DNA of 35,412 bases. It comes from a virus. The notes below the pieces were generated by a model that saw only the letters and a program-made list of their open reading frames with translations, did not search any database and was not told the DNA's origin. Below are positions 6,684 to 33,698 of this stretch, piece after piece. How positions within the stretch are numbered: the stretch's first letter is position 1; every line of letters begins with the position of its first letter. The translations under genes and the position numbers were made by a program. The stretch lies in the IMG/VR virus record IMGVR_UViG_3300022562_001358, positions 1 to 35,412 of that record; one strand, written 5' to 3'.

Positions 6684-7115
6684 ATGCTTTTCAAGAGAAT
6701 CAGCAGGTCGACGGCCGAAACCATATTCATCGTCGTCAAGAACGTGTCCGGCAGTACGCTGACGGCCGGTTACTCCTGCGTGTTCGACGTTGGTGCCAGC
6801 GTGGACGGTGTTCGCGTGACCCAGGCATCGGCTACGGACCTGCAGGCCTATGCCGGCGTGGCGGACGCGGACATCGCCAACGGTGACTACGGCCTGGTCC
6901 AGATCTACGGCTACCGCTCGAGCGTATACGTTTACAGTTCGACGGGAACGTCGGCTGCCGGCGACGAGTTGCTGACGGTTGCGGCGGAGTGGGGCCTCAC
7001 CCCGCAAACAACGTCGGCGGACGCCAAGTCGTGGGGCTTCCTCTGCGAAGCCGTCGCAGGCTCGTCGTCCTCGCGTTACCATACGACCGCGAAGGCGTTT
7101 ATCCGGGCGCTGTAA
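6684..7115 (+). CDS. Small beta-rich head protein, likely decoration
   Basis: This 143-residue protein directly follows the capsid gene, with a GGGAA ribosome-binding site. It is rich in Ser, Thr, Ala, Gly and Val and predicted by eye to be all beta (for example IFIVVKNVSGSTLTAGYSC and LVQIYGYRSSVYVYSS). Proteins with this size, composition and position often bind the outside of the capsid as decoration or stabilising subunits, so that role is inferred. No catalytic motif is visible. It is followed by a perfect ten-base-pair hairpin, so it is probably the last gene of the head transcript. Confidence 0.72.
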   Translation: MLFKRISRSTAETIFIVVKNVSGSTLTAGYSCVFDVGASVDGVRVTQASATDLQAYAGVADADIANGDYGLVQIYGYRSSVYVYSSTGTSAAGDELLTVAAEWGLTPQTTSADAKSWGFLCEAVAGSSSSRYHTTAKAFIRAL

Positions 7116-7124
7116 TGCAGTACA

Positions 7125-7149
7125 CGGCGGGGGCCGCGCGCCCCCGCCG
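7125..7149 (+). terminator. Perfect GC hairpin after the head genes
   Basis: CGGCGGGGGC at 7125-7134 is perfectly complementary to GCCCCCGCCG at 7140-7149 around a five-base loop. It lies ten bases after the stop codon of the decoration-type gene and 19 bases before the glycosyltransferase start. No T tract follows, so it is not a textbook intrinsic terminator. It could attenuate read-through, protect the 3' end of the capsid message, or mark the left edge of the inserted cassette. Confidence 0.65.
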
Positions 7150-7167
7150 ACCCTGGTAGGGAGGGGC

Positions 7168-8187
7168 ATGCGCTATCTGTTCATCGACGCTTCCACGCGT
7201 CTGGAGACCATCCACGACCTCGAGCGTCGCGGTCGCGGCGGCATGGTCTCGTCCCTGTTCAAGGTCACCGACTTCCTGTCGGCCAGGGGCCATGACGTTA
7301 CGGTGGTCTCCGACATCAAGCACGACGGGGTCACGAAGTTCGGGACCAAGTGGCTCCACGAACCCTGGGGCGAATATGACGCCCTTGTAGCGAACCGGGG
7401 CACGGGGGCTGGTTACCCCGCGGTCAAGGCGAGAAAACGCGTCCTGTGGACGCACGATCTGCCTCACAGTGGTTTTATCCCGAATCCGAAAACCATCCGG
7501 GCGTTTGACTACACGGTGTTCATGTCCCGGTACGCGGAGCGGGTCTGGCGGGCCTTCTACAAGCATATCGGCCGGTCGGTCCTGATCCCGAACGGGGTCG
7601 ATCGCCGGCTGTTTTTCGACCGGGGCAAGGAGGCCGACCTGCTGCTGTACGCCTCGGCCCCGAACCGCGGCCTCGAGCGGCTGCCGCTGATCCACGACGC
7701 GGTCCAGACCCGGCTTGGTCGGCCGGTGACCCTGCGGGCCTTCAGCAACCTGGCGATACTGCACCCGGGCGAGGTGGACGAGGGTTTCGACTACAAGAGC
7801 GTCGCCGAGTCCGGCGTGGACCTGCTCGACCCGGTCCCGCAGCAGGACCTGGCCTACCAGCTGGGGCGCGCGGTCGGCCTGCTGATGCCGTCCGCGATGC
7901 CGGAGATCTGCTCGAACATCCTGCTGCAGGCGCTGGCCTCCGGGACGCCGGTATTCACGACGGGCGGGCTGGGTTTCGTAGATGAGTGGGTAACGCACCG
8001 CAAGAACGGCATGCTGACCAGGTTCGGGCCGTGGGACTATATGATTTACACCGTGGAAACCGTCCGAAACCTGGTCGAGTATCTGGACAACCCAAGGCTC
8101 CAGAAACGGATGCAGCGAAGGGCTGAGGAAACCGCATTGTGGAATTGGATCGACGTAGGAAAAGCATGGGAACGGCTCTTAAACTAA
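7168..8187 (+). CDS. GT4-like glycosyltransferase
   Basis: This 339-residue protein is likely a GT-B-fold retaining glycosyltransferase that moves a sugar from a nucleotide-sugar to an acceptor. The ATG at 7168 is chosen because GGGAGGGG lies just upstream; the open frame further left is antisense-like filler. The N-terminal half begins MRYLFIDAS and has a glycine-rich RGGMVSSLFKVTDFL loop. The second half holds IPNGVDRRLF, typical of the start of the C-terminal Rossmann domain in GT4 enzymes. LMPSAMPEICSNILLQALAS follows, matching the family's E-x7-E donor-binding region (PE...LQALASGTPVFTT). A phage could use it to modify its own capsid, its DNA or the host surface; the acceptor is unknown. 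It overlaps the methyltransferase gene. Confidence 0.88.
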   Translation: MRYLFIDASTRLETIHDLERRGRGGMVSSLFKVTDFLSARGHDVTVVSDIKHDGVTKFGTKWLHEPWGEYDALVANRGTGAGYPAVKARKRVLWTHDLPHSGFIPNPKTIRAFDYTVFMSRYAERVWRAFYKHIGRSVLIPNGVDRRLFFDRGKEADLLLYASAPNRGLERLPLIHDAVQTRLGRPVTLRAFSNLAILHPGEVDEGFDYKSVAESGVDLLDPVPQQDLAYQLGRAVGLLMPSAMPEICSNILLQALASGTPVFTTGGLGFVDEWVTHRKNGMLTRFGPWDYMIYTVETVRNLVEYLDNPRLQKRMQRRAEETALWNWIDVGKAWERLLN

Positions 8188-8714
8188 ACCTCGGCTGCGG
8201 ATTCAGCAAAATGCGCGGGTGGGTCAATGTCGACGCGTTCGACAATTGCGGCCCGGACGTTGTGTGGGACCTGAATATCACCCCGTACCCCTGGCCCGAC
8301 AACTCGGTGGACGAGATCGCGATGTACCATGTACTCGAGCACACCGAGGAGTGGTGGGACGTTATCTGCGAGTGCGCGCGGATACTGAAGCCGGGCGGCA
8401 CAATGGAGGTCCGGGTGCCGGACGAGTCAAGCACCTCGGCCTTGTGTTACCGGGACCATCATCACGTTTTCTCGCTGCACTCGTTCCACGGCATCATGGA
8501 TCGCAGCGGCTGGGGCACGAACGCCTGGGCGCACCTTGAGAACGAGACCGTTCCGCTCGTCCTGTACAAGTACCGCAAGGTCCCGCACAAGCAGTACTTC
8601 TGGATGACCCGGTGGGGGTTGCGGTGGTTGCTGGCCTTCTGTGCGGAGCATATGCGGAATTTCATCCACGAACAGCGTTTCTACTTCAGGAAAATCGATG
8701 TCGACCAAAAATGA
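8166..8714 (+). CDS. Class I SAM-dependent methyltransferase
   Basis: This 182-residue protein starts at the ATG at 8166, which has TAGGA upstream, rather than the in-frame ATG at 8139. KLNLGCGFSKMRGWVNVDAF is the SAM-binding motif I plus the following acidic strand. A DLNITPYPWPDNSVDEIAMY segment leads to YHVLEHTEEWW, and ARILKPGGTMEVRVPD closes the Rossmann core. This organisation is common in small methyltransferases encoded beside sugar-transfer genes. The C-terminal part is rich in Trp, His and Arg (HKQYFWMTRWGLRWLLAF). The substrate is unknown; modification of a glycan made by the adjacent glycosyltransferases is a reasonable inference. It overlaps the genes on both sides. Confidence 0.88.
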   Translation: MGTALKLNLGCGFSKMRGWVNVDAFDNCGPDVVWDLNITPYPWPDNSVDEIAMYHVLEHTEEWWDVICECARILKPGGTMEVRVPDESSTSALCYRDHHHVFSLHSFHGIMDRSGWGTNAWAHLENETVPLVLYKYRKVPHKQYFWMTRWGLRWLLAFCAEHMRNFIHEQRFYFRKIDVDQK

Positions 8715-8919
8715 GATCACCTTCTACCGGTGCGAGACCTGCGCCTCGGTAGTCTCGCCCTGGGATATCCGAAAGGCGGGCTGCTCGAGGTGCGGCGGGG
8801 TGCGCGTCCGGCCGTCCAACCTGACGCTGGTTGAAAAGATGGTCCAGGTAATAAAACACCCAAAAATCTGGGAGTGGCACAAGCATGAAATTGTACCAGC
8901 CGACCAGAAAAGACCGTAA
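8698..8919 (+). CDS. Zinc-ribbon small protein
   Basis: The preferred start is the ATG at 8698, overlapping the methyltransferase end, giving 73 residues; the frame upstream of it is antisense-like. YRCETCASVVSPWDIRKAGC followed by SRCGG supplies two CxxC pairs (C-x2-C, C-x2-C) about 15 residues apart, a zinc-ribbon arrangement. The rest is a basic helix with several Trp and His residues (KHPKIWEWHKHE). No function is known for this type; it may be a scaffold or regulator of the surrounding sugar-transfer enzymes. It overlaps the next gene when the ATG at 8885 is used. Confidence 0.72.
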   Translation: MSTKNEITFYRCETCASVVSPWDIRKAGCSRCGGVRVRPSNLTLVEKMVQVIKHPKIWEWHKHEIVPADQKRP

Positions 8920-9622
8920 AACGTACGAGAAAATGTCGGTGGTCATTGTGACCCCGTGCAAGGACTACGAGGTGCCGGTTCTGTTCGCGCGGTGCCTGGC
9001 GAACCTGGTCGCCTACTCCTGGATGCATGGGCTCAAGGTCTACCAGTTCGGCTACACCGAGCGGATGGTCGTCCACTGGGCGCGCAACCACCTGGCGGAG
9101 ATCGTCAAGGACCGCAAGAACGAGTACACCGGGGAGCCGTTCACCCATGTACTCTGGCTGGACGACGACCATGCGTTCAACCCGGACATGCTCTGCCGGC
9201 TGGCGAGCCACGACGTCGACTGCGTGTCGGCCCTGTATTTCGGGCGGGAGGAGAACCACCTCCCAGTGGTCTACGTGAAGGACAAGAACCCGGACAAGTA
9301 CAAGCACTACCCGCTGATCGTGCCCCCGGAAACGCTGGCCGAGGTCGATGCGGTCGGGTTCGGGGCCTTTCTGATGCGCCGGGACGTCCTGGACAGGTTC
9401 GATGGCCCCTGGTTCAAGTTCGAGAACTGCGGCGAGGATATCTACTTCTGCGTCAATGCCAAGGAGGCCGGGGTGCGGATTTTCCTCGACGGGGGCTACC
9501 GCATAGGGCACCTGGGGAAGTACGATATCGTCACGGAAAGCACGTACAACAAGTACATGTGCGATAATGCCGACAAGTATGCTGACCGTATCAAGGTAGG
9601 GCTGGGCGGCAGGGAACTGTGA
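8885..9622 (+). CDS. GT2-like (GT-A fold) glycosyltransferase
   Basis: This 245-residue protein is probably a GT-A-type sugar transferase. The core begins at MSVVIVTPCKDYEVP; an ATG at 8933 just before it is a possible alternative start that would remove 16 residues and the overlap with the zinc-ribbon gene. VLWLDDDHAFNPDML carries the DDD/DxD metal and nucleotide-sugar site, and VGFGAFLMRRDVLDRF followed by FENCGEDIYFC gives the GED-type catalytic-base region of GT2 enzymes. A conserved-looking HxGK end (GHLGKYDIV) follows. Phage homologues with this layout are common as auxiliary genes. Together with the GT4-like enzyme and methyltransferase it forms a four-gene cassette. Its stop codon lies inside the left arm of a long inverted repeat. 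Confidence 0.85.
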   Translation: MKLYQPTRKDRKTYEKMSVVIVTPCKDYEVPVLFARCLANLVAYSWMHGLKVYQFGYTERMVVHWARNHLAEIVKDRKNEYTGEPFTHVLWLDDDHAFNPDMLCRLASHDVDCVSALYFGREENHLPVVYVKDKNPDKYKHYPLIVPPETLAEVDAVGFGAFLMRRDVLDRFDGPWFKFENCGEDIYFCVNAKEAGVRIFLDGGYRIGHLGKYDIVTESTYNKYMCDNADKYADRIKVGLGGREL

Positions 9623-25944: not shown

Positions 25945-26222
25945 GAAGGGCCGCGCGTGTCGACGAGAATCAAAGGAACATTGTCGCTGCCCTCCGGCAA
26001 GCGGGGTTCGAGGTCCATATCATCAGGCAGCCGGTTGACCTGCTTGTCTGCTGCCGAGGACGCTGGATACCTGTCGAGGTTAAAGAGCCTCATAAACGAG
26101 GCCGAGCCGACGAGTTCACGCCAGCACAGAGGCGGTTTTTTACGGCTACACGCGGCCCGGCCTGCGTTGCATATGATGCAGAAGGAGCAATCGAGGCTGT
26201 TCAGCGATTGGCAAGCATATGA
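25941..26222 (+). CDS. VRR-NUC-like nuclease
   Basis: This 93-residue protein starts at a GTG overlapping the previous stop codon. RVDENQRNIVAALRQAGFEV is the N-terminal helix, QPVDLLVCCRGRWIPVEVKE supplies D33 and E46-x-K48 of a PD-(D/E)xK site, and FTPAQRRFF followed by GPACVAYDAEGA completes a small VRR-NUC-like fold. Such stand-alone nucleases may cleave Holliday junctions or branched DNA. It ends the rightward replication/recombination set. The next gene lies 26 bases away with an AGGAG ribosome-binding site. Confidence 0.82.
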   Translation: MRRAARVDENQRNIVAALRQAGFEVHIIRQPVDLLVCCRGRWIPVEVKEPHKRGRADEFTPAQRRFFTATRGPACVAYDAEGAIEAVQRLASI

Positions 26223-26248
26223 TTAGGTAATAACATTGCGAGGAGCTT

Positions 26249-26422
26249 ATGAAAGTCGGAAACGTCAAGGCATCAGGTACGGTTCGGATACTGGACAAGG
26301 ACGGTAACGTCAAAAGTGAATTTCAGGTAGAGTCCATCGAGATAGGCGATGGGATCGCAGACTCGCTGCCGGAACCCCTGGTCGATGGCGCGAATATTGA
26401 GGAAAAAGACGATGCAGCTTAG
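26249..26422 (+). CDS. Small acidic hypothetical protein
   Basis: This 57-residue gene has AGGAG just upstream. It is acidic and beta-rich (KASGTVRILDKDGNVKSEFQ, then VESIEIGDGIADSLPEP). No family is recognised. Its stop codon overlaps the next gene's ATG region at 26412, implying coupled translation. It begins the second structural block. Confidence 0.6.
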   Translation: MKVGNVKASGTVRILDKDGNVKSEFQVESIEIGDGIADSLPEPLVDGANIEEKDDAA

Positions 26423-26813
26423 CACTTCACTCAGAAATACGCTCGCAAACGCCATCGACACGGCGGTCGGGGCAACCGGCCAGGTGCGCTGGTACACGAC
26501 CGGCCTGGGGACCAAGCTGGCCTCCGCCACGCTGTCCAACCCCGCGTTTGGCACCGCCGCGACCGGGACGATAACGCTGGACGTTACGCCAGCCGTGCAG
26601 GATACGAGCCCGGCCGCTGCCGGAACGTGCGTACGCCTGGGTTTCTACGCCTCCACTGCGGCGACGGCCAATGCGTTTGTCCTGATGCTGGGCGTGGCGA
26701 CGAGCGGTGCGCCGGATATTACGATGGCGAATAATGTAATCGCCACGACCGACACGGTGCAGCTGACGTCGTTGACGATCACAGTACCAGCCGGTACACC
26801 AGATGTGACCTGA
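26412..26813 (+). CDS. Beta-rich virion-type protein
   Basis: This 133-residue protein starts at ATG 26412; the frame upstream is a shadow of the previous gene. MQLSTSLRNTLANAIDTAVG is a polar helix, followed by Thr/Ala-rich strands (GTITLDVTPAVQDTSP, VRLGFYASTAATANAFVLML). The pattern matches small phage surface or tail proteins of unknown function. It overlaps the sulfotransferase start by one base. Role inferred only from composition and context. Confidence 0.66.
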   Translation: MQLSTSLRNTLANAIDTAVGATGQVRWYTTGLGTKLASATLSNPAFGTAATGTITLDVTPAVQDTSPAAAGTCVRLGFYASTAATANAFVLMLGVATSGAPDITMANNVIATTDTVQLTSLTITVPAGTPDVT

Positions 26814-27691
26814 TGACCGACGAGCGGCAGGGCGTTACATGGCTCGCGTCGTATCCGAAATCGGGAAATACCTGGCTCCGTTTGCTGCTCGAGGCATACC
26901 GTCGCGACGGCCTCCTGGACATCAATGACGTCCAGGTAGGCACCAGCGACGGCGGGGCAACCATTACCCAGGGTGTGTCGCCGCTGCCGCTGGCCTCGAT
27001 TGATTGGCGAACGGAGTTGCTACTGCGGCCAGCGGCCCTGTTAAACCTGTTTTCCAGGCTCAACGCGCCGATATTTTGCAAAACGCATAGTTGCAACCTG
27101 CAGCTGGACGGGCTGCCCCCCATGATCCCGGCGCCGTTTACCAAGCGAGCCGTGTACGTCGTGCGAGACCCGCGGGCCGTTCTGCCGTCGTTCTCGAGGT
27201 TCTACCGGTTCCCGCTGTCAACCGCCTGCGATGCGATGTCGTCCAAGGAATTTGTCATTGGCGGCAACGAGCACTTTGCCAGGGTGCTGCTGTCCAGCTG
27301 GTCGAACCATGTTGCCTCCTGGACCTCGGAGAGCCAATTCCCTGTCCATGTCGTAAAATACGAGGACCTGCTGGCTGACGCGGCGGGGCAACTGGTAGAT
27401 ATACTGGGCTTTCTCGAGATCCCGGTGGACCGGGACCGGGTGGCCCGGGCCGTCAGTGCAACCGATATTGCCAAGCTCAAGAAGGCCGAGGCAGAAAACG
27501 GGTTCCGGGAGCAGGTTGGAGGGGGCGCGTTTTTCGGTGGCAGTGACTCCTGGCGCGAGGAGCTCGGCGAAAAATGGGTTCGGCGAATCGAAACAGATCA
27601 CGGCACCGTTATGGAGGCGCTAGGATATGAAAAAGTTTTTCCTGCTGATGTTGCCGGTAGCAGCGTTAGCCCAATCCGAATTTCCGCGTGA
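26813..27691 (+). CDS. PAPS-dependent sulfotransferase
   Basis: This 292-residue protein is likely a soluble sulfotransferase, which moves a sulfuryl group from PAPS to a hydroxyl or amine. SYPKSGNTWLRLLLEAYR holds the 5'-phosphosulfate loop at residues 13-23 (K16, S17, G18, T20, W21). FCKTHS supplies the conserved Lys-Thr-His. VYVVRDPRAVLPSFSRFYRF carries the 3'-phosphate-binding Arg and Ser near residues 119-127, and KYEDLLADAAGQLVDIL is a typical later element. FFGGSDSWREELGEKW resembles the C-terminal G-x2-G/W-K PAPS-binding end. All core elements are present. It sits between beta-rich virion proteins, so sulfation of phage or host surface glycans is an inference. Its last 65 bases overlap the next gene in another frame. 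Confidence 0.9.
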   Translation: MTDERQGVTWLASYPKSGNTWLRLLLEAYRRDGLLDINDVQVGTSDGGATITQGVSPLPLASIDWRTELLLRPAALLNLFSRLNAPIFCKTHSCNLQLDGLPPMIPAPFTKRAVYVVRDPRAVLPSFSRFYRFPLSTACDAMSSKEFVIGGNEHFARVLLSSWSNHVASWTSESQFPVHVVKYEDLLADAAGQLVDILGFLEIPVDRDRVARAVSATDIAKLKKAEAENGFREQVGGGAFFGGSDSWREELGEKWVRRIETDHGTVMEALGYEKVFPADVAGSSVSPIRISA

Positions 27692-28001
27692 CGTCACTTA
27701 CTGCTGGATTAACCCGGCAGAGTACCTGGACGGCTCGCCGATCCTGGTAGGTGATCTTGATTACATCAGACTGCTGGTAACGCGCAACTCGGGCGAGGTG
27801 GTACTCGATTTCGCGGTCCCCGTCGGGGCCAACCTGCCGGGCGCGCAGCAATGCCACAATTTTGTGGGCGCTATCCCCCAGCCGGGCACGTATACGGCCG
27901 TCGCCTACGCGGTGACTAACGAAGGGGCCAGTTCGGACGCGTCCAATACGAGCGAGAAGCGGTTCACCGGCAAGCCGTTGCCGCCGGCTGGGTTGCAGTA
28001 A
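27627..28001 (+). CDS. Exported beta-sandwich (FnIII-like) protein
   Basis: This 124-residue protein has a Sec-type signal peptide: basic MKK, hydrophobic FFLLMLPVAAL, and an Ala-Leu-Ala cleavage site before Q16. The mature part is a small beta-sandwich (GDLDYIRLLVTRNSGEVVLD, NLPGAQQCHNFVG, GTYTAVAYAVTNEG), which resembles a fibronectin III domain, with two cysteines that could form a disulphide bond in the periplasm. An exported protein in a phage island is unusual; it may modify the host surface or be part of virion-associated export. It starts within the sulfotransferase gene. Confidence 0.72.
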   Translation: MKKFFLLMLPVAALAQSEFPRDVTYCWINPAEYLDGSPILVGDLDYIRLLVTRNSGEVVLDFAVPVGANLPGAQQCHNFVGAIPQPGTYTAVAYAVTNEGASSDASNTSEKRFTGKPLPPAGLQ

Positions 28002-28405
28002 TGGCCGACGTACTGAATCGAACCGAGGGGCTGACGTTCCCGTATCGAAAGAAGTTCCTGCGCTCGGTCAGCGAGGGGCGCTTTCCGCAGACCGACTGGA
28101 TCTGGTCGCCCGACCTGTCGGCCGTGCAGGGCTTCGACTCGATTTACTGGGATATTGCCGGCGACAGCGTTGTCCTGGTCGATCAGGCAACCCGCGATGC
28201 GCGGGACGCGGAGATCGCCGCGGCGGCACTGACGGCCAGGCGCGAGAAACTGAAGCTTCGTTACGACGCTGAGGACTTGCTGAAGGCATTCGCGGAGGTG
28301 CTGATTGACGAGATCAACATCCTGCGAAGCCAGCATGCGCTGCCGGATCGGACACCCGCGCAACTTCGCACGGCCTTGCAGAACAAACTGGATCAGGTGA
28401 CCTGA
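28001..28405 (+). CDS. Hypothetical protein with helical C-terminus
   Basis: This 134-residue protein starts one base inside the previous stop codon. The N-terminal half has aromatic residues (GLTFPYRKKFLRSV and QTDWIWSPDLSAVQGFDSIY). The C-terminal half is helical and charged (RREKLKLRYDAEDLLKAFAE, then ILRSQHALPDRTPAQLRTAL), as in small proteins encoded next to phage fibres. A fibre-assembly or attachment role is possible; no family is assigned. It overlaps the next gene by one base. Confidence 0.65.
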   Translation: MADVLNRTEGLTFPYRKKFLRSVSEGRFPQTDWIWSPDLSAVQGFDSIYWDIAGDSVVLVDQATRDARDAEIAAAALTARREKLKLRYDAEDLLKAFAEVLIDEINILRSQHALPDRTPAQLRTALQNKLDQVT

Positions 28406-28893
28406 TGGCGACCGGTACGATCATCCTCCCGATTCCGCCTCACGGGGCGGACCCGACCAATCCGCCGGGAATGCTTTACGAGAATTTCCAGTGGGTGCTG
28501 ACGTTCGACAGCGCGACCGACGAGATCGTGTACTGGACGTTCAGGCTGCCCGCGAATTACAGCAGTAGCCCGGTGGCAAAACTTCGCTACAAGATGGACA
28601 CGGCGACTTCCGGCAACATCGTCATGCAGATGGCGATACGCGCAACGGCCGACGGGGAGGACCCGGCATCGAGCGGGTTCGATACAGAGAACGGGTCGGG
28701 GCAGGTTGCGGTTCCCGGTACGGCAGAGTTGGAGGACGAGGTAAGCATCACCCTGACCAACAACGACTCGATGGCGGCGGGCGAGAGCATCACGGTGCGC
28801 CTGCGGCGTGACGCGGACAGCACCAGCGCGACCGACGACGCGACCGGCGACCTGAAATTGATCGCTGCCTCGATTGAGTACACGACGGCGTAA
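28405..28893 (+). CDS. Beta-rich surface protein
   Basis: This 162-residue protein is mostly beta: a Pro-rich N-terminus (IILPIPPHGADPTNPPGM), then strands with Ser/Thr/Asp (TDEIVYWTFRLPANYSSSP, ATSGNIVMQMAIRATADG, SITVRLRRDADSTSATDD). It looks like a jelly-roll virion module, but I recognise no named family. It lies between the helical 28001 protein and the LamG-like protein and is probably part of the same surface assembly. The next ATG is three bases after its stop. Confidence 0.66.
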   Translation: MATGTIILPIPPHGADPTNPPGMLYENFQWVLTFDSATDEIVYWTFRLPANYSSSPVAKLRYKMDTATSGNIVMQMAIRATADGEDPASSGFDTENGSGQVAVPGTAELEDEVSITLTNNDSMAAGESITVRLRRDADSTSATDDATGDLKLIAASIEYTTA

Positions 28894-28895
28894 TC

Positions 28896-29711
28896 ATGGC
28901 GATCCTGTTTGACGACGCCAACAGCCAGCGGTTCGATCAGGTTTCGACCGCCGTAACGGTTGAGCCGCTGACGATGGCACAGTGGATCAATCGCGATTCG
29001 GATACCGTAAACGATTACAACTTTCAGCAATTATCGGACATCAACGGGACGCCGGATGACCAGCAGCACTGGCGACTTTGTTCGGCGGATGCGTCTACCG
29101 GCGGCACTAATTTTGCGGTCGCGGCGATCATCGGGCCGGGCACGGCAACCACGGACACGGCGAATACCTCGGGCACGACATCGCTGAATACGTGGCACCA
29201 TGTCGGCGGCAAGCATACGACCAACTCGTCGCGTCACGCGTATCTCGACGGCACGGAAAGCACGGAAAACACCGAGATAGTCTCCACGCCAGCCGGTGTC
29301 GATGAATGGTCCGTTGGCTGGGAAAATGACAGTACGCCCGGTGATGGTATGTCGGGCAGCATTTTCTGGCCCGCGCTCTGGTCGGTTGCTCTTGCAGCGG
29401 CAGACCTGACCGCGCTGTCGGACGGTGCGCCCCCGTGGAGCATTCGCCCGGCCGCGCTCGCGCACTTCGCGGAATATGCCGCCGTCGGCACGGGCAACAC
29501 GCAGACCGACATGGTGCGGCAAGAAGCAATGGTGTATGGCGGCACGGGATCGCCGTCGACGGTCGAGGGGCCGTGCGTCTGTGCCGGTGGTTCGGTCATC
29601 ATCGTCGTGCATGCCGAACTGAGCGGGCCGGTGATTACGGATGTCGACACGGACGAGGCGTGGAACGACGGCGATACGGGCCTGGTCATTACCGGGACGG
29701 GGTTCGTATGA
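28896..29711 (+). CDS. LamG/concanavalin-like lectin protein
   Basis: This 271-residue protein has a LamG-like fold: AILFDDANSQRFDQVSTAVT at the start, TWHHVGGKHTTNSSRHAYLD in the middle and SGSIFWPALWSVALAAADL near 150-170, matching the strand pattern of laminin-G lectins. Such domains bind carbohydrate. The last 30 residues (SGPVITDVDTDEAWNDGDTG and GLVITGTGF) are the opening of an IPT/TIG-like domain that then stops, as though the rest were lost. It may be a receptor-binding or glycan-binding virion part. It overlaps the next gene by ATGA. Confidence 0.76.
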   Translation: MAILFDDANSQRFDQVSTAVTVEPLTMAQWINRDSDTVNDYNFQQLSDINGTPDDQQHWRLCSADASTGGTNFAVAAIIGPGTATTDTANTSGTTSLNTWHHVGGKHTTNSSRHAYLDGTESTENTEIVSTPAGVDEWSVGWENDSTPGDGMSGSIFWPALWSVALAAADLTALSDGAPPWSIRPAALAHFAEYAAVGTGNTQTDMVRQEAMVYGGTGSPSTVEGPCVCAGGSVIIVVHAELSGPVITDVDTDEAWNDGDTGLVITGTGFV

Positions 29712-30058
29712 TCAAGGAGTGGGTGGTTTTCTACGATACGGGCGAGGTGTTCGATTCCGATTCGGACATACGCGACATCCCGCGTTGCGGTGCAGAGGTG
29801 ATCTGCCAGCGCAATGAGAAAACCGGTTACGACCTGTTCCGCACGGACGGCGATTATTTCGTGTACGACGAGGCGCGTGGCGGATGGCGAATTACCGACC
29901 AGTTCGGCGTCTACGATCATTTGAATACCTGCCGGTTTCCGCTCGTCCTGTTCGGCCGCAACATGTCGGACGACGCGTTCCGCGATTTGCTGGACCAGGT
30001 AGCCGCTGTCTGCGGCCCGAAGTCCGCCTGGTTGCGCCGTGAGCGACGACCGCTATAA
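29708..30058 (+). CDS. Hypothetical phage protein
   Basis: This 116-residue protein starts at the ATG overlapping the LamG gene's stop codon; the longer open frame to the left is a shadow. WVVFYDTGEVFDSDSDIRDI, GYDLFRTDGDYFVYDEARGG and QFGVYDHLNTCRFPLVLFGR form a mixed alpha/beta domain seen in phage proteins of unknown function, followed by a helical end with an RRERRPL tail. No catalytic motif is visible. It overlaps the large phosphatase gene by 20 bases. Confidence 0.68.
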   Translation: MIKEWVVFYDTGEVFDSDSDIRDIPRCGAEVICQRNEKTGYDLFRTDGDYFVYDEARGGWRITDQFGVYDHLNTCRFPLVLFGRNMSDDAFRDLLDQVAAVCGPKSAWLRRERRPL

Positions 30059-33000
30059 GCGCCGCGGTCGCCGCGGCTTCGTCACAACCCGCGGTGAATA
30101 CCAGTGGAATGACGAGCAGCAACGCTACGTACTCGTAAAGCGCGAGGGATACGAGTACGACGGCCCGTGGGCGCTGGCGCACACCAACGCCGTTTTTGAG
30201 CAGCCAAACTGGCGCTTCCGGTACGACGACGGCACGTTATCGACCGCCACGTTCGCGGCTGCCCAGAACACCAATGCGAACAGCGGGCAATTCAGTCCGG
30301 GCAACAAGTTTCGCATCCGGTTCAATCTCGGCGACACGGCCAACGGTGACTCAAACAACACCGGTACGCCGACCATTCAGTACCGCGTCAACACCGGGGG
30401 CGGATTCGGTTCGTGGACCTCGCTGACCACGGCGTATCAGAACGGCATCCGGCTGACGAGTTCGGATAACTCGATCACGGACGGTGCGAACGACACGACG
30501 CAACGCCTGTCCACGATTACAGGATCGGTGTACCAGTCGGCGTGGAACGAGTACGACGACAATCAATCGTTGACCAGTCGCACGTACACCGACGATTACT
30601 GCGAATTTGAGTTCTGCCTGCAAGTCAACACGGGGACCGAGGGCAACGTCTACGAACTGCGCCTGCTCGATCCCACGGGGAACGTCCCCGACGTTCCGCC
30701 GTCGTCGGACGCGCAGTTCACGGTTAAAGCACCGCTGACCTGTTCTGGCACCCCGTCGATTGCATCGCCGACCGCAAGCGGCACCAGCACGATCACGCAC
30801 AAGATCACCGCTGCTGTCACGATGACGGCCGTTACGGCAGCGGGCGTGGCGATGCTCGCGCCGAAGGTCTGGTTGAACTCGACCGCGACACTTTCGGGTG
30901 CCACGCAGATGACGGTAACGGCATGGAATACTGCCGGTACGTCGATAACCTTCACCGACCCGTCGGGCGCACCGACCGGCTCCCTGCAGCTGGGCGTCGA
31001 GGCGCGTAACCAGGGCGGGGGCGAGGCGAATACCGGCTGGATAGCCGTAACGGTATCCGCGCCATCCGCGAAAACCGGGTCCGGTACACCGTCCATAGAC
31101 TCGCCAACCGCGAGCGGCACGGCAACGTATATCCATACGGACACGGGCGCCCCGTCGATAGATTCACCGACCGCCTCCGGCGTGTCCGCGTTTCTGCACG
31201 ACGCGACCGGGACGCCGTCGATAGAGTCGCCGACCGCCTCCGGCGCGGTCACCTACATCCATACGGACTCGGCCAGTCCGAGCATAGAGTCGCCGACCGC
31301 CTCCGGCGTGTCCGCGCTCGGCAGCATCCTGGAGGCCTCCGGCACCGTCCAGGCAGACTCGCCGACCGCCTCGGGCAGCGTTACATACGTTCATACCGAT
31401 AGCGCGACGCCGTCGATCGACGCGGTCACGGCGTCCGGCGTGTCGGCCTTCCTGCACGACGGGACCGGGACGCCCAGCATCGATGCGGTTACTGCATCAG
31501 GAACGTCGGTTCGGTTCCTTGCAGCCTCCGGCAGCCCGTCCATCGCCTCGCCGACGGCGTCAGGCGTTAGTGCCGAGGACCCAACCGTAACGCATTACAT
31601 GCTCGGCGCGGTCACAACCTCGTCGGCGCGGTTTGCCATCCGCTCGACCAGCGCGCCGCCGGCACTGCTGGTATCGACCAATTCGAACCTGTCCGCCCCG
31701 ACCACAACAGCCACCGGGACGCTGACAGCGGACTCGATGTACAAGTACGAAGCGACCGGCCTGTCGGCGAACACGACGTACTATTACGGTCACATTTTCA
31801 ACGAGAACCTGGGCTCGTTCACGACCGCACCGACCGGCCAGGCGAATTTCAGTATCGTGTTTGCGTCCTGTTCGCAGGACTCGTCCAATGCCGACACGTA
31901 TGCCCGCATGGCCGACCGCTCGCCCGCGTTTTTCATGCAGATGGGCGACTGGGGCTACCCGGATATAACGACCGACAACGATTCGCTTTACTACACGAAC
32001 TACAAAGCGAACCTGGGCCAGTCGAACCAACAGAACTTAATGAAAAACGTCCCGCTCGTTTACATGTGGGACGATCACGATTACTCGAACAACGACAGCG
32101 AGGCATCGTCGGCGGCGAAACCGGCCGCTTTAACGACCTATCGGAATTACGTCCCGCACTACGACCTGGTCTACGACACGACGCCCGACGCCGACCCAAT
32201 CACGCATACGTTTGTCTGGGGCGGAGTGCGCTTTGTCATGCTCGACCAGCGTTCTGCGCGGGTCTCGAGCGGAACCGCCGGCCTGGGTAAGCGCCTGGGA
32301 GACACGCAACGCGACTGGCTGATCGACCTTATCGACAATTTCACCGAGGAAGCGATGGTGATTTGTGTCGGTACTCCGTGGATCAACACCAGCGGAACGC
32401 AGGACGACTGGGGCGAAACGGGCGCGGCCAACGGTGAACGCGAGTTAATCGCGAACGCTATCGAGCGCAGGCGTGGGCGCGTTCTGATCGTTCACGGCGA
32501 TGCCCATATGATCGCGGCGGATGACGGGACCAACTCGTACTACTCGTCGTACACGCGATCGACCACCGGCCCGACCGTACTTTGCGCGGCTCCAATCGAT
32601 AACACGAACAGCACGAAGGGCGGGCCGTATAGCGAAGGAACGAGCGCGGCCGATACGAACCAGTACGGCGTCCTGGCGTTTACCTGGTCTGGCGGCAAGG
32701 TAACGGCGGCATTCACCGGCTACGACGTCGACGGCGCGTCCGAAACATCGGTGATGACGCTCAATACTCTGCTGGACGGCGAGATCCTCGCGGTAGGCAC
32801 ACCGTCTATACCGACGATCACGGCGTCCGGGGTCTCCGTGCTTGCCGGCAACCTTACGGCCAGTGGCACCCCGTCCATCGAATCGCCGACGGCGAGTGGC
32901 ACGGTAACGTACGTCCACACAGATACCGGCACCCCCAGCCTGGACGCGGTCACGGCGACGGGTCAGTCAGGTTTCCTCCAGGATGCTACCGGCACCCCAA

Positions 33001-33698
33001 GCACTGACGCGATCACGGCCAGCGGCAGCGTTACCTACACGCACAAGGACAGCGGCACCCCGGCGATCGACTCGCCGACGGCCACGGGCCAGTCCGGGTT
33101 CTTGCGGGGCGCCTCCGGCACCCCGAGCTCCGATGCAATCACGGCGTCCGGTTCGGTCACTTACATCCACACCGACGGCGGCACCCCAAGCATCGATGCG
33201 GTCACGGCGAACGGCGTATCGTCCCTGGCCGGTGAGGCGCTGTCGGCTTCCGGCACCCCGGCAATTGACTCGCCGACGGCCAGCGGTGCGGTAACGTATG
33301 TTCACACGGACAGCGGCACCCCCAGCGTCGATGCGATCACGGCGGCGGGCCAGTCGGGATTCTTGCAAGACGCGTCAGGCACTCCCAGTGTCGACGCGAT
33401 CACGGCAACCGGCGCGGTCACCTACGTTCACACCGACGGCGGTTCGCCGGCAATCGATGCCGTTACCGCGGCCGGTGTATCCGCGTTCCTGCACGACCTG
33501 TCAGGAACCCCGCTGATCGACACGATCACGGCAACCGGCACCGCAACGGTGACCGGGCTTAGAACCGCTTCAGGAACCCCGGAAATCCCGCAAATCGTGG
33601 CATCCGGCACCTCTATCGGGCCGCAAGTGCCAGGTGGGTCTGGCGGCGGATCGACCCTTCTCTACGCCCTCAATTGGTACGTTTTCCTGCGCCACTAA
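30039..33698 (+). CDS. Repeat-flanked PhoD-like metallophosphatase virion protein
   Basis: This 1219-residue protein starts at a GTG within the previous gene's end. Residues 1-235 are an N-terminal beta region (possible attachment). Residue 236 opens a single SGTPSIASPTASG repeat, followed by an Ig/IPT-like stretch to about 345. Repeat array 1 spans about 348-515. Residues about 518-915 are an FnIII-like lead plus a PhoD-type phosphatase/phosphodiesterase domain with MGDWGYPD (G636, D637), MWDDHDYSNND (D678-D681, N684-N685) and HGDAHM (H819, D821, H823), the metal and catalytic motifs of that family. Array 2 spans about 919-1196, and a hydrophobic tail LLYALNWYVFLRH ends the protein. The active site looks intact. 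A role in hydrolysing phosphoesters at the cell surface is inferred; substrate unknown. Confidence 0.84.
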   Translation: MSDDRYKRRGRRGFVTTRGEYQWNDEQQRYVLVKREGYEYDGPWALAHTNAVFEQPNWRFRYDDGTLSTATFAAAQNTNANSGQFSPGNKFRIRFNLGDTANGDSNNTGTPTIQYRVNTGGGFGSWTSLTTAYQNGIRLTSSDNSITDGANDTTQRLSTITGSVYQSAWNEYDDNQSLTSRTYTDDYCEFEFCLQVNTGTEGNVYELRLLDPTGNVPDVPPSSDAQFTVKAPLTCSGTPSIASPTASGTSTITHKITAAVTMTAVTAAGVAMLAPKVWLNSTATLSGATQMTVTAWNTAGTSITFTDPSGAPTGSLQLGVEARNQGGGEANTGWIAVTVSAPSAKTGSGTPSIDSPTASGTATYIHTDTGAPSIDSPTASGVSAFLHDATGTPSIESPTASGAVTYIHTDSASPSIESPTASGVSALGSILEASGTVQADSPTASGSVTYVHTDSATPSIDAVTASGVSAFLHDGTGTPSIDAVTASGTSVRFLAASGSPSIASPTASGVSAEDPTVTHYMLGAVTTSSARFAIRSTSAPPALLVSTNSNLSAPTTTATGTLTADSMYKYEATGLSANTTYYYGHIFNENLGSFTTAPTGQANFSIVFASCSQDSSNADTYARMADRSPAFFMQMGDWGYPDITTDNDSLYYTNYKANLGQSNQQNLMKNVPLVYMWDDHDYSNNDSEASSAAKPAALTTYRNYVPHYDLVYDTTPDADPITHTFVWGGVRFVMLDQRSARVSSGTAGLGKRLGDTQRDWLIDLIDNFTEEAMVICVGTPWINTSGTQDDWGETGAANGERELIANAIERRRGRVLIVHGDAHMIAADDGTNSYYSSYTRSTTGPTVLCAAPIDNTNSTKGGPYSEGTSAADTNQYGVLAFTWSGGKVTAAFTGYDVDGASETSVMTLNTLLDGEILAVGTPSIPTITASGVSVLAGNLTASGTPSIESPTASGTVTYVHTDTGTPSLDAVTATGQSGFLQDATGTPSTDAITASGSVTYTHKDSGTPAIDSPTATGQSGFLRGASGTPSSDAITASGSVTYIHTDGGTPSIDAVTANGVSSLAGEALSASGTPAIDSPTASGAVTYVHTDSGTPSVDAITAAGQSGFLQDASGTPSVDAITATGAVTYVHTDGGSPAIDAVTAAGVSAFLHDLSGTPLIDTITATGTATVTGLRTASGTPEIPQIVASGTSIGPQVPGGSGGGSTLLYALNWYVFLRH
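31080..31583 (+). repeat. Repeat array 1 before the phosphatase domain
   Basis: Eight imperfect copies of a unit of about 20 residues (about 60 bases), core SGTPSIDSPTASG, lie in tandem with a ninth isolated copy at 30744-30782. Tails alternate between a TYIHTD type and a hydrophobic SAFLHD type, making a rough 120-base double unit. Copies differ at many silent sites, so they are not a recent perfect expansion. Confidence 0.88.
32793..33630 (+). repeat. Repeat array 2 after the phosphatase domain
   Basis: Thirteen copies of the same unit follow the phosphatase. Variants alternate GTPSIDAVTATG and SGTPAIDSPTASG cores with TYVHTD and GFLQDA tails, again giving double units. The motif at the DNA level (ggcaccccgtc/agcatcgac) recurs, so recombination between copies is possible. 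The array ends just before the C-terminal hydrophobic segment. Confidence 0.88.

Follow-up and report, generated by a model that had tools for sequence, protein, structure and literature searches.

A sulfotransferase gene embedded in a recurring, fibre-linked gene cassette of uncultured phages

The window analysed here is one entire IMG/VR virus record (IMGVR_UViG_3300022562_001358; 35,412 bp) with PHROG matches to terminase, portal, major head, tailspike and endolysin. It carries a predicted PAPS-dependent sulfotransferase gene (ST) as the third member of a translationally coupled cassette (Table 1). The first cassette gene overlaps the second, UP, by 11 nt, and the UP stop and ST start codons share 1 nt (TGATG); a 1-nt overlap of the two genes also occurs at three other viral loci (L003, L019 and L045). 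Promoter and terminator scanning of the window performed at chance level as a whole, with one promoter-like site falling just before the cassette (26208–26236). The terminase, portal, capsid and lysis genes of the record led us to reject a prophage or a cellular source for the region; the occurrence of UP near ST in none of the 80 best bacterial loci was likewise counted against a cellular origin.

Table 1. Features of the window, with positions on the 35,412-bp record
Feature	Position	Strand	Remarks
~57-aa protein	26249..26422	+	first cassette gene; motif GTVRILDKDGNVKS (DKDGNVKS)
133-aa beta-rich fibre-type protein (UP)	26412..26813	+	second cassette gene
PAPS-dependent sulfotransferase (ST)	26813..27691	+	292 aa, ATG to stop; exact ORF bounds
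124-aa protein	27627..28001	+	overlaps the ST end by 65 nt; no Pfam match
134-aa protein	28001..28405	+	same fibre-region gene row; no Pfam match
162-aa beta-rich protein	28405..28893	+	no Pfam match
Concanavalin-A-like lectin domain protein	28896..29711	+	PF13385 (Laminin_G_3), 3.4e-7
1219-aa Ser/Thr-rich repeat protein	30039..33698	+	internal PhoD-like phosphatase domain, PF09423, 8.4e-13
Glycosyltransferase-like gene	ORF from 6979		behind cement-like protein
Methyltransferase	8139-8714		behind cement-like protein
Second glycosyltransferase-like gene	8885-9622		behind cement-like protein

Of the surroundings described in the initial annotation, a phage surface-protein region with beta-rich, lectin-like and phosphatase neighbours, the lectin-like and phosphatase domains are recovered in domain searches, and the ST gene proved to belong to a fibre cassette that recurs among viruses. 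The 124-aa protein encoded immediately downstream has an N-terminus that appears signal-peptide-like by eye (MKKFFLLMLPVAALA). The 1219-aa protein is the counterpart of large repeat proteins found downstream of the cassette at several other loci; its PhoD-like domain is embedded in a fibre-like context of GTPSIxxPTASG repeats. Elsewhere in the window (6684–9622), a weakly matched cement-like protein (Phage_cement_2) is followed by glycosyltransferase-like and methyltransferase genes, possibly a set for modifying virion or host glycans.

The assignment of ST to the sulfotransferases, also made in the initial annotation, is upheld by sequence and by fold. Pfam Sulfotransfer_1 matches it at 7.7e-20 (71.8 bits against a cut-off of 22, covering profile positions 4–246 of 255), and phmmer against the PDB returned Teg12 (4.8e-17), StaL (5e-12) and SULTs. 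An AlphaFold2 model built on 57 relatives reached a pLDDT of 93.1, and Foldseek ranked the Teg12–PAP complex best (E 6e-13), with StaL and SULTs at a probability of 1.00. Each motif named beforehand was located in the reading frame: the 5′ loop YPKSGNTW (residues 14–21), KTH (90–92), the 3′ loop VRDPRAVLPSFSRFY (117–131) and the C-terminal SW (246–247). H92, R118, S126, E184, E226, F240 and F241 are invariant in 57/57 viral members, including both residues of the 3′-phosphate site (R118 and, eight residues on, S126), and K16 and K90 are each retained in 56. The PKSGNTW stretch doubled as a retrieval pattern for viral STs, so its invariance is biased and proves little. The C-terminal RKGxxGDWK motif of SULTs is absent from the window ST and is replaced by FFxxGxxxW (F240, F241, G243 and W247), which places the protein in the wider superfamily, not among animal or plant SULTs. 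In the closest pair, dN/dS was 0.07 for ST and 0.10 for UP; together with conservation, this rules out an ORF artefact. Family, fold, conserved catalytic residues and purifying selection, all read from sequence, thus describe an apparently functional PAPS-dependent sulfotransferase in a fibre and surface-protein region, presumably active as a catalyst and expressed late.

The bacterial glycopeptide sulfotransferases Teg12, Teg14 and StaL, also of the Sulfotransfer_1 family, are the closest solved structures by both sequence and fold, sharing the fold and the 5′ PSB/3′ PB motifs with the window ST at about 23% identity. They act on teicoplanin-type aglycones and lie in antibiotic gene clusters, whereas the window ST lies in a phage fibre cassette.

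Viral relatives were collected by short conserved patterns plus tblastn from metagenomic contigs, most of them fragments. A single-sequence query found three close relatives, and a four-sequence profile at least 80 viral loci. The view that such enzymes are uncommon in phages therefore holds for isolates and fails for uncultured viral contigs: three different ST members used as queries matched none of 50,697 INPHARED phage records at the cut-offs used (a terminase control found 1,551 records), and none of the 57 members matched any of 38,880 PHROGs. Identity to the 80 best-matching bacterial loci is 28–40%. A tree of 113 proteins, obtained by a quick search with no bootstrap and with cellular sequences limited to the closest matches within the bacterial family, splits into one side with 54 viral and 2 cellular members and another with 54 cellular and 3 viral ones; the window ST groups with other UP-linked phage proteins in a nine-member clade (SH-aLRT 99). 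By this sequence comparison, the viral relatives appear to form a largely phage-specific clade apart from their cellular homologues. One cellular member of the phage clade, from a Geminicoccus MAG (L143, 573–4582), follows a gene for a 1053-aa probable secreted protein with no Pfam match.

UP is the gene directly upstream of ST in every close relative. Iterated profiles placed UP next to ST at 16 distinct viral loci (the window, L002–L006, L008, L010, L012, L019, L025, L033, L041, L045, L083 and L084), directly upstream in 15 of them and downstream in L025. A separate UP-profile search returned six loci, all with ST adjacent, of which three (L005, L083 and L084) lay outside the profile-building set; the UP of L012 used as a single query matched only itself. 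The remaining cassette gene encodes 51–65 aa with the motif GxxxIxDKDGNxKS. It immediately precedes UP in 10/10 core loci, two of which (L006 and L084) are outside the 57-aa profile, and has no homologue elsewhere among 19,464 reading frames. Pairwise distances of UP and ST are correlated (Mantel r 0.86, 0/5000 permutations). In the window, L003, L019 and L083, ST has UP on one side and large repeat proteins on the other. Two STs occur in single phage loci in L016 (7207–8852, a tandem pair) and L008 (6875–10274), the latter with a longer protein that carries a fused UP domain ahead of its second ST.

UP is probably a virion or fibre component, as judged from its PHROG label, fold and neighbours. 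It matches phrog_3758 (virion structural protein) weakly in the window copy (5.4e-4) and at best at 2.2e-15 in relatives, and 9 of 61 genes upstream of viral STs match the same family. Foldseek of the UP model (pLDDT 90.5) gave a single significant PDB match, the 139-residue chain 9rkv_A (3.9e-4), from a tail-fibre entry of Agrobacterium phage 7-7-1. The paper on this phage (PMC12796354) describes two fibres, one long (gp015) and one short (gp008), together with small gp014 proteins that form a garland, and we infer that the matched chain is the garland protein. The fold may also be related to that of GP4 fiber I (podophage gp80, PF23140), which ranked sixth without significance in the same Foldseek search (8jou_a, E 0.55). 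The UP profile matched a Gp80-type protein of phage MEP401 at 1e-3; profile–profile comparison of UP with Gp80 by hhalign was not significant, and the window UP has no Pfam Gp80 match. Sequence searching of UP against the PDB gave implausible matches only, which were rejected.

UP modules also exist without ST. In Vibrio phage K354 and Sphingopyxis phage VSN-002, a small gene and UP precede a repeat protein of 669 and 488 aa, respectively, in the same gene order as the cassette but with no ST in between. The VSN-002 module lies between a P22-type tail accessory factor and a DNA stabilization protein; the deposited annotation omits the gene for its 488-aa repeat protein, which is located between UP and the DNA stabilization gene (L167, 4413–5879; MZ127829.1). 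Across the K354 branch, no ST follows UP in 19/19 viral contigs, several of which are near-copies and a few of which stop shortly beyond UP; the gene that comes next in many of them encodes what by eye looks like a typical tail-fibre protein. Because UP without ST precedes fibre genes in this branch, we read ST as an optional accessory inserted into a fibre module.

Elsewhere, the genes before viral STs encode P22-type coat proteins (6), Gp80 fiber I proteins (PF23140; 6 Pfam matches) or a 172–177-aa beta family, and SU10-adaptor-like genes (phrog_2941) follow in 12 cases. The 172–177-aa family (L014, 901–1431; L038, L039, L040 and L046) combines a signal-peptide-like N-terminus with conserved cysteines, which is unusual in a structural operon. 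A distant member, L065, lies between paralogous beta proteins of 195, 210 and 195 aa in a tail-fibre region; the upstream genes of L060, L065 and L035 gave no PDB match. In L034 (7625–7999), a 125-aa APS kinase with a P-loop (GNTGAGKTT) and LDGDEVR directly precedes ST with an 8-nt overlap inside a head-gene cluster. APS kinase is the PAPS-making enzyme, and its position therefore ties the ST family to PAPS. This kinase is compact, with part of the usual C-terminal region missing. In L027 (383–745), a membrane fragment resembling Wzy_C (O-antigen polymerase/ligase), placed in this locus by its sequence, lies directly upstream of ST and is the sole ST neighbour that points to host polysaccharide.

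Since ST belongs to a gene set that recurs across many unrelated viruses, these phages probably sulfate either the fibres they carry or the host sugars in contact with those fibres. Genetic linkage favours a target in the phage fibre or in the receptor of that fibre, and linkage together with coupling to a fibre-type gene fits either substrate. Between them we lean, at a little below even confidence, towards ST as an accessory of a mobile fibre module that sulfates the phage's own fibre proteins or a glycan on them, with the virion presumably the acceptor. The module would comprise the 57-aa protein, the UP fibre subunit, ST and a large repeat or fibre protein. A cytosolic, PAPS-dependent O-sulfotransferase, co-produced with UP through translational coupling, would transfer sulfate from host PAPS to the fibre proteins or their glycan before assembly, and the added negative charge could alter adsorption or stability. 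The glycosyltransferase-like genes at 6.7–9.6 kb fit with a fibre-borne glycan as target. More tentatively, we put forward a broader version, in which an enzyme dedicated to O-sulfating the attachment fibres is present in transferable form in many uncultured phages, some with an APS kinase to supply the donor. We know of no phage in which O-sulfation of its own fibres serves as a virion protein modification.

The main rival acceptor, which we consider somewhat less probable, is the receptor of the linked fibre, a glycan on the host surface (LPS, capsule or exopolysaccharide). Sulfation of that glycan would spare progeny from loss on debris and shut out superinfecting phages that share the fibre type, and a receptor-modifying enzyme that travels with fibre genes explains their co-mobility as well as virion sulfation does. 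Rhizobia sulfate LPS precursors in the cytosol, a precedent for such a reaction, and the Wzy_C-like fragment in L027 and the lectin-like protein encoded in the window region point the same way. However, ST in the cassette is found coupled with a fibre gene and not in the company of early or lysogeny genes, and polysaccharide genes are no recurrent neighbour of viral STs.

Two further readings leave the fibre or the catalysis aside. ST could be an auxiliary metabolic gene whose substrate is a small molecule or lipid of the host and which has no particular connection with the virion, but we regard this as unlikely. Its best solved relatives (Teg12, Teg14 and StaL) do sulfate glycopeptide antibiotics, and viral STs are catalogued as auxiliary metabolic genes in virome studies (PMC8290583 and PMC10829341), but ST is linked in a fixed way with UP and the 57-aa gene, and viral STs of many phage types often adjoin head or fibre genes. 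Position behind a fibre-type gene could also suit a protein that has turned into a non-catalytic assembly helper. Tfa and gp38 are helpers of fibre assembly encoded in this way. Such a conversion is very improbable, given that the 57 members keep their PAPS-binding and catalytic residues intact and that an APS kinase adjoins one of them. PADLOC found no match, and an anti-phage defence reading was dropped.

Sulfotransferase-domain genes have likewise been found in phages in OM43 phage viromes, Synechococcus phage S-SRM01 and glacier ice viromes. As far as the accessible text of these reports goes, the OM43 and S-SRM01 genes belong to Sulfotransfer_3 (PF13469), whereas Sulfotransfer_1 is the better match for the window ST; viral STs appear as auxiliary metabolic genes with no fibre cassette described, whereas the window ST sits in one. 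One study states that the function of such phage genes is unclear (PMC10580990), and papers in the open PMC subset that mention phage sulfotransferases assign them no function. What is new here is the context of ST as the coupled third gene of a fibre-linked set. This fixed place in a fibre module turns the function of ST into a testable question: is the substrate in these phages the adhesin itself or the sugar to which that adhesin binds? Either answer would bring a sulfation step into adsorption and phage competition, and the cassette provides a rule for locating such a step in uncultured phages.
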